The position numbers and the translations under genes were made by a program. 64,000 nucleotides of DNA from Tepidisphaera sp. (lineage in GTDB: Bacteria > Planctomycetota > Phycisphaerae > Phycisphaerales > UBA1924): positions 558,001-622,000 of the forward strand of contig WGNV01000004.1 of NCBI GenBank assembly GCA_016124375.1, written 5' to 3'. Positions 2,675-62,288 of the stretch are shown here, one piece after another. The notes beneath the pieces are model-generated. The model saw nothing but the letters and a program-made list of their open reading frames with translations. It was not told the DNA's origin and searched no databases. Each line of letters begins with the position of its first letter. Positions within the stretch are counted from its first letter, which is position 1.

Positions 2675-4648
2675 TTACTTGCGTTCGACCTGGTTGCTGG
2701 GTTCGCCCGAGCGCGACTGCTGGAACTTCTGGAGCATGGCGCGGGCTTCTTCCAGCCCGTCGGGCTTGGGGAAGATCTGGTCGAAGGAGCGCAGGCCCGA
2801 CCCGGGGTTGGCGTTGGCCGCGGCGTTGAGATCTTCGCGGAAGTGCGTGGCCAGGGTGTCGTAGCCGATGGCCTTGAGGTCGGGCGGGGCGCGGTCGTAG
2901 ACCTGCTCGGCGTCGTCGAGGCCCAGGTTCTGCAGGAAGAGCGAGAACTGGATGCCGGCCATGACGCGGAAGTCGCTGGGCATCTGCTCCATGCGTGCTT
3001 CCTTGCCCGAGACGACGGTCTTGCGCATCTGGGCTTCGAAGAACGCGCGGTGGGCCATCTTGGCGAAGTTGAACTGCTTGAGGAACAGGTCCTGGTCGCC
3101 CGCCAGCAGGCCCGTGACGTAGGCCCCCTGCAGGGCGCCGGTCACCTGCTGGACGGCGATCGCGGGGCGACCGAACTCGCCCGTGAGCTCCTTGGTGACG
3201 AACTCATCGATGGGAAGCTGCAGATCGGCCCGCTTCCATGGGTCGTTCATGGTCTGGTACTTGAAGTTGATGAGCTTGTCGCGCCATTCCTCGGCGGTCT
3301 TGACCTCGCCCCGGCTGAAGAAGAAGCAGATGGCGTCGCGGATGAAGTTCTCGTAGCCGCCGGCCAGGGGCATGGTGCCGCGCTTGTTGGGGTCGTCGGC
3401 CCAGCTGCGGGCGACCATGGCGTCGAGCATGTCGCCGTAGCTCTGGACAAAGTGGGCGTTGGGTGCGCCGAGCCAGAGGGCGTACTTACCGGGGATGGTG
3501 GAGGAGAGGAAGTCGAAGTAGAGGTCGCCGCTGCGGAAGAGATCCTGCACGGCCTGGGCGCTGACGCGGTCGGTGTTGATGAAGTCGAAGAGGCCCTTGT
3601 TGGCGCGGGTGGCGCGATCCAGCGAGTTTTCGACGCCCTCGTGGGACCAGTAGAAGGCGTGGGCGGCGTGGTGTCGCCAGTCGATGGGCCCGATCTCTTC
3701 GGTGTAGCGGACCATCTTGGCGGGGTCCATGTGGTAGCGGTGGATGAGGACCTGCTTGCGGATGAAGGCGAGCAGGGCGGGCCAGGCCTTGGCGAAGGCG
3801 GGGTCGTCGACGACGGCGCCGAAGGTGCGGGCCTCGACGCCCATCTGCTTCTCGTAGAAGCGCTTCTGCCCGCTCTCTTCGACGGCGCGCCAGATCTCGT
3901 AGCGACGGAGCAGACGCCAATCGGGCGACATGTTCAGCTTGGCCAGGGCGAGGGCGAGCTGGTCGGTGGTGGGCTCGCGCTCGTGGAGCTGCTCGGGGGT
4001 TTCGGCGGCGTCGCGGATGACGGCGATCCACCCGGCGAACTTCTTGATGGCCTTGGCGCGGTCGCGGTCTTCGGGCCCGCGCTTGGGGGGCGGGCCGACG
4101 GCGATGGTCCACTCCTGGGCGAGCATTTTCTTGTAGTAGAGGTTGGCGTCGTCGGTCTGGCCGCCGATCTTGTGGAGGAAGATCCAGCCAAGTTCCTTGT
4201 GGAGGAGGAGGTTGTTGGGGTTGGCGGGGATGCCCTGATCGCGAAGCAGGTCGATGCCGGCCTTGACCCAGTGCCAGCGCTCCTCGGGCGTCTGGGTGCT
4301 GACGGAGATGTTGTACGCCATGTTCCAGGCGTGAAAGACCCAGACGCTGGCGAAGCGGGGCTGGAGCTTGGTGATGGCCTCGGCGAGCTGGTTGGCCTCG
4401 TAGAACTTGCCGTCTTCCTTCATCTGGTTGGCGCGCATCCAGAGGAAGTTGACGAAGATGCCGCGGAACGCGCCCATGGCGATGCCCAGGGAGACCTCGC
4501 GGGATTGGCCGTCTTCGGCGCGATCGGTGTAGGTGAGCTTGTCGCGCCCGGCGATGGCGGTGAGGGCGACGGCAAGCCCGCCCGAGGTGAAGAGGCACAG
4601 GCACAGGAGTGCCGACGCCCCGATTCGAATCCATGTGTCGCGTTTCAT
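2675..4648 (-). CDS. Conserved-looking membrane/exported protein of ABC cluster, TPR-like helical content
   Basis: 657 aa, N-terminal TM segment, consistent coding frame, co-directional with ABC permease/ATPase. Confidence 0.82.
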   Translation of the reverse strand: MKRDTWIRIGASALLCLCLFTSGGLAVALTAIAGRDKLTYTDRAEDGQSREVSLGIAMGAFRGIFVNFLWMRANQMKEDGKFYEANQLAEAITKLQPRFASVWVFHAWNMAYNISVSTQTPEERWHWVKAGIDLLRDQGIPANPNNLLLHKELGWIFLHKIGGQTDDANLYYKKMLAQEWTIAVGPPPKRGPEDRDRAKAIKKFAGWIAVIRDAAETPEQLHEREPTTDQLALALAKLNMSPDWRLLRRYEIWRAVEESGQKRFYEKQMGVEARTFGAVVDDPAFAKAWPALLAFIRKQVLIHRYHMDPAKMVRYTEEIGPIDWRHHAAHAFYWSHEGVENSLDRATRANKGLFDFINTDRVSAQAVQDLFRSGDLYFDFLSSTIPGKYALWLGAPNAHFVQSYGDMLDAMVARSWADDPNKRGTMPLAGGYENFIRDAICFFFSRGEVKTAEEWRDKLINFKYQTMNDPWKRADLQLPIDEFVTKELTGEFGRPAIAVQQVTGALQGAYVTGLLAGDQDLFLKQFNFAKMAHRAFFEAQMRKTVVSGKEARMEQMPSDFRVMAGIQFSLFLQNLGLDDAEQVYDRAPPDLKAIGYDTLATHFREDLNAAANANPGSGLRSFDQIFPKPDGLEEARAMLQKFQQSRSGEPSNQVERK

Positions 4649-51360: not shown

Positions 51361-51635
51361 GCGTGGTCCTGGGACGGGAGTTTGAGCCGCCTGGGAATGC
51401 GGGGGCAGCGGGGCCTGAAGGCGATAAAAACAACAGGCGCCAGAGCGCCCCGCGGTAACGGGAGAATAACGGTATCGTGGGCTGTGGGCTTGGGAGGAAG
51501 GTTACCGACGCGGCCCGGGCGGGCGGCCAACGATGGCGATGGCCCTGGGAGTCGAGGTCTGGCTCGGCGCATGTGGTTCGGAAGTTCGGTCGGAAGGATG
51601 CGGCGGCAAGGTTGTTCGGCAAGGAGGACTTTCGC

Positions 51636-54407
51636 GTGGCAGGATCACATCGCACACCTTCAACGCCGCCCGCCTTTTCTCGCCCATGTCGGGGTGCTGT
51701 CGCGCTGCTGCTGGCCGGGCTCCTTACGCCCGCGGCGATGGCGCAGCTTCCACCCGGCAAGCCGACGATCGGGCGTCCGGGGAACATGCCCGGGCAACCC
51801 GGCTTCAACGCTGGGCAGCCCGCACAGCCAGCCCAGCCAGCGCAGCTGAACCCCGCCGCGCCCGCCGAAAACGGGCCACAGGGCCCGCTGCCGAGCATTG
51901 ATTCGGGCGACCCCGAGACGGTGTCGCTGGCGGCGTTCACCGAGCCGGTGCAGCTCAAGACGCTGATCGACCTTGTCGGGCAGACGCTGCACATCAACAT
52001 CACCACAGTGGGCGACGTGCCGGGCTCGGTGGTGTTCAACGCGCCGGTGCCGATCAAGAAGTCCGAGTTCATTTTTCTGCTGAACTCGCTGCTGGAGCAG
52101 CAGGGGTACTCGATCACCAAGAACCGGTACGACTGGTACATCGTGCAGAGCAACAGCACGATCACCAGCACCATGGGCAGCAACCTTGCGACGACGCAGG
52201 TGATCGCCACGCCCAACCTGCGCCCGAGCTCGGTCAAGCCATCGATCGACGCACTGACCGCCGGCAGCGCCCAGGGGGGCAACAACGGCAAGTACTCGTA
52301 TGTGGATGATCTTGGCGTGATCATCGCGACCGACTCGCCCGCGCGGCTGCAGGCGGTGCGCGACCTCGTCGATCAACTGGTGGCGATCAACGATCAGACA
52401 TCGTTTCAGCGGCTGGAGCTGAAGCACATCTCCGCGTCGGTCGCGCGCGACCGGGCCCTGCAGCTTGCGGGGGTGTACGCCTCGGGTTCCGGGGGCGCTC
52501 AAAACCAGGGGCAGAACCCCAACGCGCCCGGCCAGCCGGCGCAGGTGCGCAGCTCGACGAGCCTGAGCAGCCTGAACGACCGCTTGTGGGTTGATCCGCA
52601 GGGCAACGCGCTGATCTTCAGCGGCACGGCCACCGAGATCAATCTCGTCAAGCGCGTGCTCGACGTGATCGACGTGCCCAACACCCTGGAGCCAAAGGGG
52701 TATGACGTGGGGTCGTCGGCCGCGCAGATCGCGAACATCGCGCGCGAGCGCGGGCTGGGGGAAGTGATCTCGATCGGCGAAGACGTGCAGGACCCCAACA
52801 ACGCCAACAGCACGCAGCGATTCCAGAACAACAACTTCTTCAATCGCAACCAGAACGGCGTGAATGGTTCGGGCGGCCCGATCGCCGGCGGGCCGGTGAT
52901 GGTGGTGGACGAGCACCGGGGCAAGATCGTGTACTACGGCACGCCCACGCAGCAGAGCGAGCTCAAGGCACTCATCGGCGAACTGGACACGCAGGCGGAC
53001 ATCATCACGACGCAGGTGTTCAAGCTGAAGAACAGCGATTCGGACGACGTGGCGGACATCATCAACGGGTTGATCAGCAACCAGACGCCGATCGCGACCG
53101 GGGATCTGCTGGGCAGCAACCAGGGTTCGAGCCGCGCCCAGCGTCAGAGCCGCCTGCCGAACAACAACGGCATCAACAACCCCAACATCCAGAGCCGGCC
53201 CAGCGGAACGAACTTTGACATCGGCGACAGCTTCAACCCCGACCCGACGACGGCGTTTGTGATCTCGAACAAGGCGAACAACCAGGTGATCGTGAAGGCG
53301 CGGGCGAAGGACCAGCCGCAGTTCGCGCGGATCATCGAGCAGCTCGACCTGCGGCGCCCGCAGGTGTACGTGGAGGCGCGGATCATCGCGGTGACGGCGA
53401 GCGACTCCCTGAGACTGGCGTTCGAGGAGCAGCTCATCAACGCCAGCGGCACGGGGGGGCTGCTGAACACCAACTTCGGGCTATCGAGCTTCGCCACGGG
53501 GGGCTCGCTGGCCGCGGCCAAGGCTGTCGCGACCGGGCTCCCGGGCTTCACGGGCGCAGTGATCAAGAACGATCAGGTGCCGATCGTGCTCAACACGCTG
53601 GCGACCGAGACCGACTCCAAGGTCATTTCGCACCCGCAGTTGCTGGTGGATGACAACGAAGAGGCGAATGTCGAGAGCAAGGACACGAGGCCGACGAGCT
53701 CGCTCAGCCGCGGCACAGGAGGTTCGGGGGACGTCGTGACTTCCGGACCCGACGCGGAGGCGGGGACGACCCTGACCGTCACGCCCCAGATATCCGAGGC
53801 GGGGTACCTGCGGCTGAAGTATGAGATCAAGCTGTCGAGCTTCACGGGCAACAGCACGACGGTGTCGGGCACGGTGCTCAACCCTCCCAAGCAGGTGAAC
53901 ACGCTGAAGAGCGACAGCGTGACCGTGCCCAGCGACTGCACCGTCGTCGTGGGCGGGCTGGTGGTGGACAGCAAGACCAAGACGATCAACGGGATTCCAT
54001 TTCTGAAGGACATTCCGGGGATCGGGCTGCTGTTCCAGGATCGCAACACGGGCGATACCAAGACGGTGTTGTACATCTTCATCACGCCCAAGATTCTGCG
54101 CGAGCCGAGCTTTTCGGATCTGAAGCTGCTGACCGACGGCCCGCAGAACGCCACCGGGCTCTCGCCCGACATTCCGGCGCTCGAACCCTCGATCATCCCG
54201 ATCGCCAAGGCGGGCATCAGTCCTGTGCCTGGCGGGAACGCTCCGGGAACGCCCCCGGCGCCGATTCCCAACACCGGGCGTGATGATGCGCCGCAGGTCG
54301 CGCCAGCCCAGGACGCGGCGCCGAGTCAGCCATCGCCCGCCCAGCCAGCGCCACCGGCCCAGCCCATGCCCGAACCAGTGCCGGTGCAGCCCATCAAGCC
54401 CCGCTGA
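51636..54407 (+). CDS. gspD: Type II secretion system secretin (GspD-like)
   Basis: Repeated N-domains; DCTVVVGGLVVDSKTKTINGIPFLKDIPGIGLLFQ...LYIFITPKIL; AAGGAGG SD before GTG. Confidence 0.9.
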   Translation: MAGSHRTPSTPPAFSRPCRGAVALLLAGLLTPAAMAQLPPGKPTIGRPGNMPGQPGFNAGQPAQPAQPAQLNPAAPAENGPQGPLPSIDSGDPETVSLAAFTEPVQLKTLIDLVGQTLHINITTVGDVPGSVVFNAPVPIKKSEFIFLLNSLLEQQGYSITKNRYDWYIVQSNSTITSTMGSNLATTQVIATPNLRPSSVKPSIDALTAGSAQGGNNGKYSYVDDLGVIIATDSPARLQAVRDLVDQLVAINDQTSFQRLELKHISASVARDRALQLAGVYASGSGGAQNQGQNPNAPGQPAQVRSSTSLSSLNDRLWVDPQGNALIFSGTATEINLVKRVLDVIDVPNTLEPKGYDVGSSAAQIANIARERGLGEVISIGEDVQDPNNANSTQRFQNNNFFNRNQNGVNGSGGPIAGGPVMVVDEHRGKIVYYGTPTQQSELKALIGELDTQADIITTQVFKLKNSDSDDVADIINGLISNQTPIATGDLLGSNQGSSRAQRQSRLPNNNGINNPNIQSRPSGTNFDIGDSFNPDPTTAFVISNKANNQVIVKARAKDQPQFARIIEQLDLRRPQVYVEARIIAVTASDSLRLAFEEQLINASGTGGLLNTNFGLSSFATGGSLAAAKAVATGLPGFTGAVIKNDQVPIVLNTLATETDSKVISHPQLLVDDNEEANVESKDTRPTSSLSRGTGGSGDVVTSGPDAEAGTTLTVTPQISEAGYLRLKYEIKLSSFTGNSTTVSGTVLNPPKQVNTLKSDSVTVPSDCTVVVGGLVVDSKTKTINGIPFLKDIPGIGLLFQDRNTGDTKTVLYIFITPKILREPSFSDLKLLTDGPQNATGLSPDIPALEPSIIPIAKAGISPVPGGNAPGTPPAPIPNTGRDDAPQVAPAQDAAPSQPSPAQPAPPAQPMPEPVPVQPIKPR

Positions 54408-54437: not shown

Positions 54438-56141
54438 ATGGCCCTATTCAAAGACAAAAACGGAACGCTCGCCAAGCGGGTGGAGGTGGAGGCCAAGCCC
54501 AGCCCCGGCGCGATGGCTCGCCTGGCGGAGCTCTTTAGCCCGCTGCCGCTGACGCCCGCGCAGATCCAGCAGTTCAGCCGCGTCGAAGGGTCGGACGAAG
54601 AGCCGTGGGACGTGATGCTGCAGATGCTGGCGATGGACGAGCATCAGGCGCTGGAGATGCTGGCCAAGCGAACGGGGTTGCGCTTCGTCGCCGATCCGCG
54701 CCAGCACGAGTCGTCGCAGCGGTTTTACGAGTTGGTGCCCGCGGAGGTGGCTCGCGCCCGGCTATGCGCCGGGCTGGAGAGCGACGGTCAGGTGATGACG
54801 ATCGCCACGGCACAGCCGATGCAGCCCGCCGTCTTCCAGATGCTGGAGGACATGCTGCAGATGCCGGTGCGGCTGGTCTTTTCACCCCGCGCCGGCGTCG
54901 CGAACCTGCTGAACCGGGGCTACGAGAAAAGCCAGGACCTGGTCACCGAGATCATCGAGGAGATGCCGCTGGATGAGCGGGCGATCGCGGCGGCCGCGGG
55001 CAGCGCCGGGCAATCCACCGACCTGCTCGCCCTGGCCCGCCAGACGCCGGTCATCCGCCTGGTGAACATGATCCTGTTCGAAGCGTTGCGCCGGCGGGCC
55101 AGCGATATCCACGTGCACCCGCAGGAAAACAAGCTGGTCATTCGGTTCCGCATCGACGGCATGCTGGTGGATGCGTTCTCGCCGCCCTTGAGTTTGGCGC
55201 CGGCGATCAGCTCGCGCATGAAGGTGATGACGGAGCTGGACATCGCCAACCGGCACAGCCCGCAGGACGGGCACACGAGTGTGCGGGTGGGCAGCCGCAA
55301 GGTTGATATCCGGTTTTCATGCATCCCGACGGTGTATGGCGAGCGGCTGGTGCTGCGATTGCTGGATCAGACGGCCACGCAGTTGTCGCTGGATGAGATC
55401 GGCATGACCAAGCCGATGCAGGCGCAGTTGCTCGACCTGATCGAGCGGCCGACGGGCATCGTGCTGGTGACCGGCCCTACGGGCAGCGGCAAGACGACGA
55501 CGCTGTACGCGGCCTTGAGCCGGATCGATCGGGCGAGCCGCAACGTGATGACGATCGAAGACCCCGTGGAGTATCACCTGGAGGGCATCAGCCAGATGCA
55601 GGTGAACGCCAAGCGAGGCGTGACGTTTGCCGCCGGGCTGCGGGCGCTGCTGCGGCAAGACCCCGACGTGATCCTCGTCGGCGAAATCCGCGATGGCGAG
55701 ACGGCGCAGCTGGCGATTCAGGCGTCGCTCACCGGGCACCTGGTGCTCGCAACGCTGCACACGAATGATGCGCCCGGCGCGATCCCGCGATTGGTGGACA
55801 TCGGCATTGAGCCGTATCTGGTAACCAGTTCGCTGCTCGCGACGCTGGCCCAGCGCCTGCTGCGGCGGACGTGTCAGACGTGCAAGGGCAACGGCCAAAG
55901 CCCGGCGGGCGCGGGGGCGTGCGAGGTGTGCTTCGGGGTCGGATACAAGGGCCGCCTGGCGGTGTATGAGATCATGGCGATGAACGACGAGCTGCGCACG
56001 CTGACGGGCAGCCGTGCGGACGCGGTGACGCTGTACGAGGCGGCCATCCGGGCAGGGTTCAGCCCGATGCGCAACGACGCGATGGACAAGGTGAAGCGCG
56101 GATTGACGGACGAGGCCGAGGTGTACCGCGTGCTGCACTGA
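54438..56141 (+). CDS. gspE: Type II secretion/type IV pilus assembly ATPase (GspE/PilB-like)
   Basis: VTGPTGSGKTTTLYAAL, MTIEDPVEYHLEG, ILVGEIRDGETAQLAIQASLTGHLVLATLHTNDA, zinc motif CQTCKG...CEVC. Confidence 0.95.
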   Translation: MALFKDKNGTLAKRVEVEAKPSPGAMARLAELFSPLPLTPAQIQQFSRVEGSDEEPWDVMLQMLAMDEHQALEMLAKRTGLRFVADPRQHESSQRFYELVPAEVARARLCAGLESDGQVMTIATAQPMQPAVFQMLEDMLQMPVRLVFSPRAGVANLLNRGYEKSQDLVTEIIEEMPLDERAIAAAAGSAGQSTDLLALARQTPVIRLVNMILFEALRRRASDIHVHPQENKLVIRFRIDGMLVDAFSPPLSLAPAISSRMKVMTELDIANRHSPQDGHTSVRVGSRKVDIRFSCIPTVYGERLVLRLLDQTATQLSLDEIGMTKPMQAQLLDLIERPTGIVLVTGPTGSGKTTTLYAALSRIDRASRNVMTIEDPVEYHLEGISQMQVNAKRGVTFAAGLRALLRQDPDVILVGEIRDGETAQLAIQASLTGHLVLATLHTNDAPGAIPRLVDIGIEPYLVTSSLLATLAQRLLRRTCQTCKGNGQSPAGAGACEVCFGVGYKGRLAVYEIMAMNDELRTLTGSRADAVTLYEAAIRAGFSPMRNDAMDKVKRGLTDEAEVYRVLH

Positions 56142-56214: not shown

Positions 56215-56691
56215 ATGCCCACGCATGTACAAGTGATTCTCCAGGCGGTTTCGTCGTTCGCCATTTGCTGCGGCCTCGTGTTCGCCGCGTTGCAGTTGCT
56301 GCACTGGCGGCGGGCGTACCAGGTGGCCAACTTCACCAAGCTCGTCGAACTGCAGATGTCGCTGCGGAAGATGCGGGTGGATGACCCGTCGATCGCGCGG
56401 GTGCACATGCATGACGTGGAAGACCTCGAAACCGACGAGGAGATCCGGCACTACTTCATCAACCTGATGCAGTTGTCGGTGTTTGAGATCGCGTGGTACA
56501 GCTTCCGGCAGGGGCAACTGACCGAAGACTACTTCCGAAGCTGGGAGAAGCGGATGCGGGCGCTGCTGGCCGAGCCGAGCTTCCGGCGGATGATGCACAA
56601 GCCGAGCATGAAGATATTGCACGACGAGTTTGACGCGTACATGCACCGGGTGATGCAGCAGGTGGAGGCGCGAGAGCCGGAGAAGAAGTAA
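56215..56691 (+). CDS. Membrane-anchored protein of unknown function
   Basis: N-terminal TM then helical 130-aa domain. Confidence 0.75.
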   Translation: MPTHVQVILQAVSSFAICCGLVFAALQLLHWRRAYQVANFTKLVELQMSLRKMRVDDPSIARVHMHDVEDLETDEEIRHYFINLMQLSVFEIAWYSFRQGQLTEDYFRSWEKRMRALLAEPSFRRMMHKPSMKILHDEFDAYMHRVMQQVEAREPEKK

Positions 56692-60986: not shown

Positions 60987-62288
60987 ATGAGCCCATTTGC
61001 CCGTCGTGTCGCCCCGTTCCTCGCTCTTCTCGGGGTGGCCGCCTGCCCGGTGCTGGCACAGGAGGGCGCCAAGACCGCAGCCCCGGCTGCGACCCAGAGC
61101 GCAGCGTCCGAGAATACCAGCGAAAACAAGTACCTGCGCGTGAGTGAGAGCGACGACGGCTCGCACCTGAAGCTGGAAATCGCCGTGCGCACGCTGACCA
61201 AGCCCGGCGCGCCCGACGTGCAGCTCGTCGGCGTCACGCACATCGGCGACAAGGCCTACTACGACTCCCTGCAGAAGTTCCTGGACGAACAGTCCCTCGT
61301 GCTCTTTGAGGGCGTGAAGCCTTCGGGCGCCGGCGCGAGCTCCGCCGGAGACGATGAGGCCAAGGCCAAGGTGACGCGGCAGCGCCAGCGATTGCTCGCG
61401 GTGCTGGTGTCGCGATATCGCAACGAAAACCACGAACTGCCCACCATGTGGGGCGAAATACTCGCCCCGCTGCATGGCAGCCTGGCGCGGCTGGGGCAGG
61501 CGGCCACCAGCGATGGCTGGGGCAACCCGCAGGAGCTCAAAGTCGAAGGCGACAAGTTCGACATCGTGAGCACCGGCGCCGATGGCGAGGAAGGCGGCGA
61601 GGGGGCCAACGCCGACATCGCGTTCTCGTCGCAGAAGCCGCTGACGCAGGACGAGCTGGCCGGCGCGGGCGAAGGCATCCAGACCAAGCTCGCCCACGCG
61701 CTCGGGCTCAAGTTTCAGCTTGAAGCCATCGACTACAGCCACGCCAACTGGCGCAACAGCGACATGTCGATCGACGAAGTGCAGAAGAAGCTCGAAGAAA
61801 GCGGCGCCTCGGGCGACGCGCTCTTCAAGATGCTCGACGGGTCGTCGTTCGCGTCCAAGCTCGTGGCGTTTGCGCTCGGGTTTGTCGAGAAGAACGCCGA
61901 GCTCTCGATGATGGTGAAGGTGATGATGATCGAGGTGCTGAGCCAGGCCGACGATCTGGCCGCCCTGGCGGGCAAGCAGGCCAAGGGCATGGACGTGATG
62001 ATGAAAGTCATCGTGCAGGACCGCAACCAGGAGGTGCTCAAGGACCTGGCGGCCGCCAGCAAAGAGCAGCCTACCCCCAAGTCCATCGCGCTCTTCTACG
62101 GCGCCGGCCACCTGCCCGACCTTGAGCAGCACCTGGCCGACCAGGGGTACACGTTTGCATCGACCAAGTGGTTCACGGCCATCGACGCCGACCTCAACAG
62201 CGTGCCGGGGATGAAGGCCCAGGCCAAGCAGATTCGGCAGATGATCCAGAAGCAGATCGAGATGCAGAAGAAGGCGGCGAGCAAGTAA
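60987..62288 (+). CDS. Exported TraB/TIKI-like protein with GspG-like inserted segment
   Basis: VQLVGVTHIGDKAYYDSLQKFLDEQSLVLFEGV; DGWGNPQELKVEGDKFDIVSTGADGEEGGEGANADI; IALFYGAGHLPDLEQHLADQGY. Confidence 0.78.
   Translation: MSPFARRVAPFLALLGVAACPVLAQEGAKTAAPAATQSAASENTSENKYLRVSESDDGSHLKLEIAVRTLTKPGAPDVQLVGVTHIGDKAYYDSLQKFLDEQSLVLFEGVKPSGAGASSAGDDEAKAKVTRQRQRLLAVLVSRYRNENHELPTMWGEILAPLHGSLARLGQAATSDGWGNPQELKVEGDKFDIVSTGADGEEGGEGANADIAFSSQKPLTQDELAGAGEGIQTKLAHALGLKFQLEAIDYSHANWRNSDMSIDEVQKKLEESGASGDALFKMLDGSSFASKLVAFALGFVEKNAELSMMVKVMMIEVLSQADDLAALAGKQAKGMDVMMKVIVQDRNQEVLKDLAAASKEQPTPKSIALFYGAGHLPDLEQHLADQGYTFASTKWFTAIDADLNSVPGMKAQAKQIRQMIQKQIEMQKKAASK

Follow-up and report, generated by a model that had tools for sequence, protein, structure and literature searches.

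The window (the whole stretch of DNA analysed, 64,000 nucleotides) derives from a Planctomycetota/Phycisphaerales-like assembly of 3.1 Mb that is 76% complete. At 60987..62288 (+) it carries a gene with an ATG start whose 433-residue product, assigned from sequence and structural models, combines a TraB/PrgY/GumN (TIKI) fold with a GspG pseudopilin head nested inside it. The nearest named relative, 52% identical, belongs to a Phycisphaerae MAG. From the N terminus we infer that the protein is exported: residues 1-24 (60987..61058, +) resemble a signal peptide cut between VLA and Q, with a lipobox-like VAAC at residues 17-20 as an alternative, and the relatives that share the nested architecture also begin with hydrophobic stretches, mostly with an AXA-like site (judged by eye).

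Further upstream, and given here as context only, are genes for a gspD-like secretin (51477..54407, +; Pfam Secretin, TIGR02517) and a gspE-like ATPase (54438..56141, +; Pfam T2SSE, TIGR02533). They lie 4.8-9.5 kb from the nested gene, in line with the 5-9 kb given in the original prediction, with metH in between on the opposite strand. A small protein matching DUF6082 (E 7e-7) is encoded at 56215-56691 (+), between gspE and metH.

The host domain

The two halves of the TraB/TIKI fold were delimited by alignment and AlphaFold2 (AF2) modelling. The N-terminal half spans residues 48-111 (61128..61319, +; AF2 strands 60-71, 77-83 and 104-107), and the C-terminal half spans residues 231-402 (61677..62192, +). 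The window protein alone does not score against PF01963 (TraB_PrgY_gumN); it is placed in the family because its close relatives do, and of 17 that were aligned, 14 give a match, the best at 1e-7. The nested relative L020 exceeds both curated Pfam cut-offs (T2SSG, 35.1 bits at 121-210; TraB, 31.6 bits), and the plain relative L009, which has no insert, exceeds that of PF01963. These profile matches, together with the family motifs, agree with the original prediction of two TraB/PrgY/TIKI halves flanking a middle segment.

The motifs are conserved in nested and plain proteins alike. His85 of GVTH (61239..61241, +), at the position of the first catalytic histidine, does not vary among the 35 nested or the 54 plain proteins, and Glu108 of LFE (61308..61310, +), at the catalytic glutamate position, is invariant in all 89 relatives, the insertion point following within a few residues. 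The family's conserved RN motif, Arg346-Asn347 (62022..62027, +), is present in all 35 nested and in 53-54 of the 54 plain proteins; the second catalytic histidine position, His375 of GAGH (62109..62111, +), is kept in 35/35 and 53/54 (one gap). Gln244 and Asp259 are likewise invariant in both sets, as are His85, Glu108 and Asn347, and, gaps aside, Arg346 and His375. The roles given to these residues follow by analogy the His/Glu catalytic scheme of TIKI enzymes (PMC6254334), to which they were matched by motif rather than by superposition. Since His85, Glu108, Asp259, Arg346, Asn347 and His375 are conserved whether or not the insert is present, enzyme function has apparently been kept, and the TraB part is probably an active His/Glu hydrolase, be it a protease, peptidase or esterase.

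The pseudopilin head

The interrupting segment, residues 112-230 (61320..61676, +), is absent from plain relatives, giving a bimodal distribution of lengths: from Glu108 to the next host helix there are 113-146 residues in the 35 nested proteins versus 13-45 in 54 plain relatives, with no overlap. Within it, residues 122-213 (61350..61625, +) correspond to a GspG head, comprising the second half of helix alpha-1, short helices, three strands and a Ca2+ loop. Pfam T2SSG (PF08334) matches residues 123-212 with an E-value of 5.2e-8 and 33.4 bits (cut-off 21), and in a phmmer search of the PDB, residues 174-212 match GspGs with E-values of 4e-5 to 3e-4 (best 3gn9, E 4.4e-5). AlphaFold2 modelled the window protein, aligned with 16 relatives, at pLDDT 81 and pTM 0.72, and the insert alone at pLDDT 90 and pTM 0.81, suggesting that it folds independently. 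In Foldseek searches, GspG crystal structures came first both for the whole model (probability 1.00, best E 5e-3) and for the insert alone (E 1.9e-4, TM about 0.7 to 3gn9/3fu1); for the host half, the search against the PDB yielded no confident match (7w5z_E, probability 0.57). Moreover, Thr130, Pro152, Asp176 and Trp178 are invariant in 35/35 nested proteins, which excludes a chance resemblance.

Alignments and models together show the predicted TraB fold to be interrupted, right after the strand ending in Glu108, by a homologue of the GspG head of about 110 residues. The nesting proposed in the original prediction is thus borne out by profiles, by AlphaFold and Foldseek, by relatives with an empty site and by the trees described below; modelled whole or in its middle segment, the protein shows a GspG head with its own fold rather than one continuous non-pilin fold. 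The prediction had also held that the pilin N-terminal helix is absent, which is correct for its hydrophobic first half and incorrect for the second half, retained as a long helix at residues 123-148. In pilins, the hydrophobic first half of alpha-1 provides both the anchor and the means of polymerization. As this half is gone, the insert should be unable to polymerize as a pilin. It shares the head fold, the D-x-W-G motif and the Ca2+ loop with T2SS GspG proteins (PF08334, TIGR01710; EpsG 3fu1 and 4lw9, Vibrio vulnificus 3gn9), but differs from them in lacking the prepilin leader as well as the hydrophobic helix half, in being nested within another domain, and in scoring 25.7 bits against the 88.85-bit cut-off of the GspG equivalog TIGR01710.

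Evolutionary history and distribution

With the insert columns removed, a tree of the host domain places all 35 nested proteins in one clade together with a single plain protein, L009 (99/95). L009, encoded at 3451-4425 (+) of its contig from an Opitutae MAG, is a lipoprotein-like member that possibly lost the insert cleanly. Because strict monophyly of the nested proteins is not rejected (p-AU 0.28), it can be read either as a loss or as a misplaced sister; in the former case, the domain would be dispensable there. The insert tree, which has only 96 columns, separates the 35 inserts as a single group from 38 GspGs and two detached T2SSG domains (SH-aLRT 99). The agreement of the host-domain and insert trees makes an essentially single capture, in a Planctomycetota lineage, the simplest reading of these sequence comparisons.

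Among 301 sampled genomes of the order Phycisphaerales, about 147, or roughly half, encode the nested form, a figure reached from 162 matched genomes by setting aside about 15 weak ones (E near 1e-11), which were taken as ordinary GspG. It is also present in three other Planctomycetota families (f57, f63 and f85), and many genera have retained the domain despite diverging strongly. In the order's nested genomes, the nested gene is the sole family copy found, so the nested form replaces the plain one rather than supplementing it.

The record L005 (CAMBUI010000056.1) is labelled Candidatus Kuenenia stuttgartiensis, but in its nested protein and in the order of its genes (dxs, ExbB-like, ispG) it belongs with Phycisphaeraceae-like loci, and the bin is probably mislabelled or contaminated.

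Proposed role of the insert

We propose that the pseudopilin head serves as an accessory domain, a substrate recruiter or lid, at the active-site rim of an exported, active TIKI hydrolase, and give this proposal about an even chance of being right. The TraB part would hydrolyse its substrate, doing the same job as the uninterrupted protein does in relatives. As the segment follows the Glu108-bearing strand, the insert would leave the sheet beside Glu108 and be placed on the edge of the active-site cleft, a position deduced from topology. From there, it could recruit the substrate or act as a lid, restricting or presenting what reaches the active site, and the Ca2+ loop, where kept, would stabilize the domain. 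Many different domains are found appended to TIKI proteases, and in RRSP one of them is required to recruit the substrate (PMC6254334). Such TIKI enzymes, RRSP included, resemble the nested protein in their His/Glu TIKI core and in having an extra domain near the active one; the extra lobe of RRSP, however, is N-terminal and unrelated to pilins.

Alternatively, the GspG head could be a docking module that binds the T2SS pseudopilus or other GspG-binding parts, stationing a periplasmic hydrolase for exoprotein processing or quality control. We keep this as a rival, though an unlikely one, because GspG heads without a membrane helix can self-interact, as Naegleria GspG1 does with a Kd of 216 nM (PMC8134430). 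Genes matching the GspG profile also occur in every genome with the nested gene (33/33; 23 over the strict cut-off), but this co-occurrence is uninformative, since 118 of 121 Phycisphaerales genomes have GspG, nested gene or not, and it is equally present in those without the nested gene. Further against docking, the inserts form their own clade instead of tracking the GspG of each genome, and the source genome, with the completeness stated above, has no strong GspG outside the nested gene. Nor is linkage to T2SS genes conserved: gspD and gspE were sought in 24 other neighbourhoods of the nested gene and found in none. The neighbours conserved in other loci are ispG (convergent, ten loci) and elsewhere dxs and a MotA/ExbB-like gene, and being housekeeping genes they give no functional clue. 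The original suggestion of a T2SS-associated module therefore fails to gain from the linkage and co-occurrence data, and a T2SS association of the nested protein is unsupported, though not disproved.

Two observations concern pseudopilins in these genomes more generally. The source genome, which shows no strong GspG elsewhere even though gspD and gspE are in the window, has a pair of neighbouring pseudopilin-like genes that lack the Ca2+ loop (L063; C16:83294-84026), and some Phycisphaerales (G060, G066 and G131) have 69-90 matches to the GspG (prepilin-type) profile per genome.

Another alternative takes the insert as a calcium switch, which would bind Ca2+ through the GspG loop and open or close the active site with the periplasmic Ca2+ level. 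The loop, STGADGEEGGEGANADI, lies at residues 195-211 (61569..61619, +) and was located by alignment to GspG structures; both coordinating aspartates, Asp199 and Asp210, and the GG loop are present in the window protein, and the loop is intact in 28 of the 35 inserts. In GspG itself, T2SS function depends strictly on the coordinating aspartates, according to Korotkov 2009 as cited in PMC10574481. The switch is kept as a rival since the loop is mostly kept, and we judge it quite improbable. The ion in GspG is structural rather than a sensor, and family f63 (three proteins), L023, L099 and L037 have a disrupted or altered loop, whereas true GspGs from f63, G386, G119 (L168) and G298 keep it. In L100, a single Gly is changed to Ala, with both aspartates kept. 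With the loop lost in several lineages, a role in Ca2+ binding cannot be universal for the domain; the calcium-binding module of the original prediction is plausible for the window protein, whose loop is intact, and does not extend to all nested proteins. Because the four invariant residues of the head persist where the loop has been lost, the fold of the insert is under constraint, and Ca2+ binding so only in most lineages.

Loop decay in some lineages also fits a third alternative, a near-neutral captured domain that is tolerated in place and at most stabilizing, with no role of its own. The inserts diverge faster, with a mean pairwise identity of 0.31 against 0.36 for the host part, and L009, without an insert, sits inside the nested clade. 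The invariance of the four head residues and the retention of the domain across so many diverged genera stand against it, leaving this reading a slim chance. An assembly artefact or frameshifted join of two genes is already refuted by the recurrence of the architecture in the order and in three further families, and with the frame uninterrupted its probability is practically nil. The preferred reading remains that of a recruiting or lid domain at the rim of a working TIKI hydrolase.

Relation to known systems and significance

The nested protein shares with the TraB/PrgY/GumN family (PF01963; TIKI superfamily) both predicted fold halves, the GxxH, RN and GAxH motifs and the catalytic glutamate, but differs in the roughly 110 residues that break the fold after that glutamate; other members of the family are not known to carry a pseudopilin head. 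Both component families are known, and the open-licence papers searched do not describe them nested in this way; searches there for TraB with GspG in Planctomycetes and for T2SSG domains yielded nothing.

GspG heads without a pilin helix also occur in other non-pilin proteins. Long open reading frames matching residues 172-212 were considered as further fusions and rejected, being mostly ordinary GspGs behind GC-rich read-through frames; only L055 (955-2202, +) and L057 (576-3179, +) are real detached domains. These are unrelated Planctomycetota proteins that end in a T2SSG head with the Ca2+ loop intact, which in one case follows a zinc ribbon and membrane segments and in the other a long exported protein. 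Unlike the nested inserts, their heads are terminal, have other partner domains and group with GspG. Planctomycetota may make repeated use of detached GspG heads.

A bolder version of the finding would make the protein a periplasmic TIKI-type hydrolase with a pseudopilin-head plug-in that either docks onto the T2SS pseudopilus or works as a Ca2+-dependent active-site gate. We regard it as improbable; if true, proteolysis would be directly coupled to secretion in Planctomycetota. Pilin heads are mostly familiar as filament components, and here one was transferred whole to the interior of an enzyme fold and retained across a bacterial order. The family offers a natural experiment, in which matched proteins with and without the insert, and with and without the Ca2+ loop, can be compared, and it bears on what a pseudopilin head may do outside the pilus and on how TIKI-fold enzymes may gain substrate specificity.
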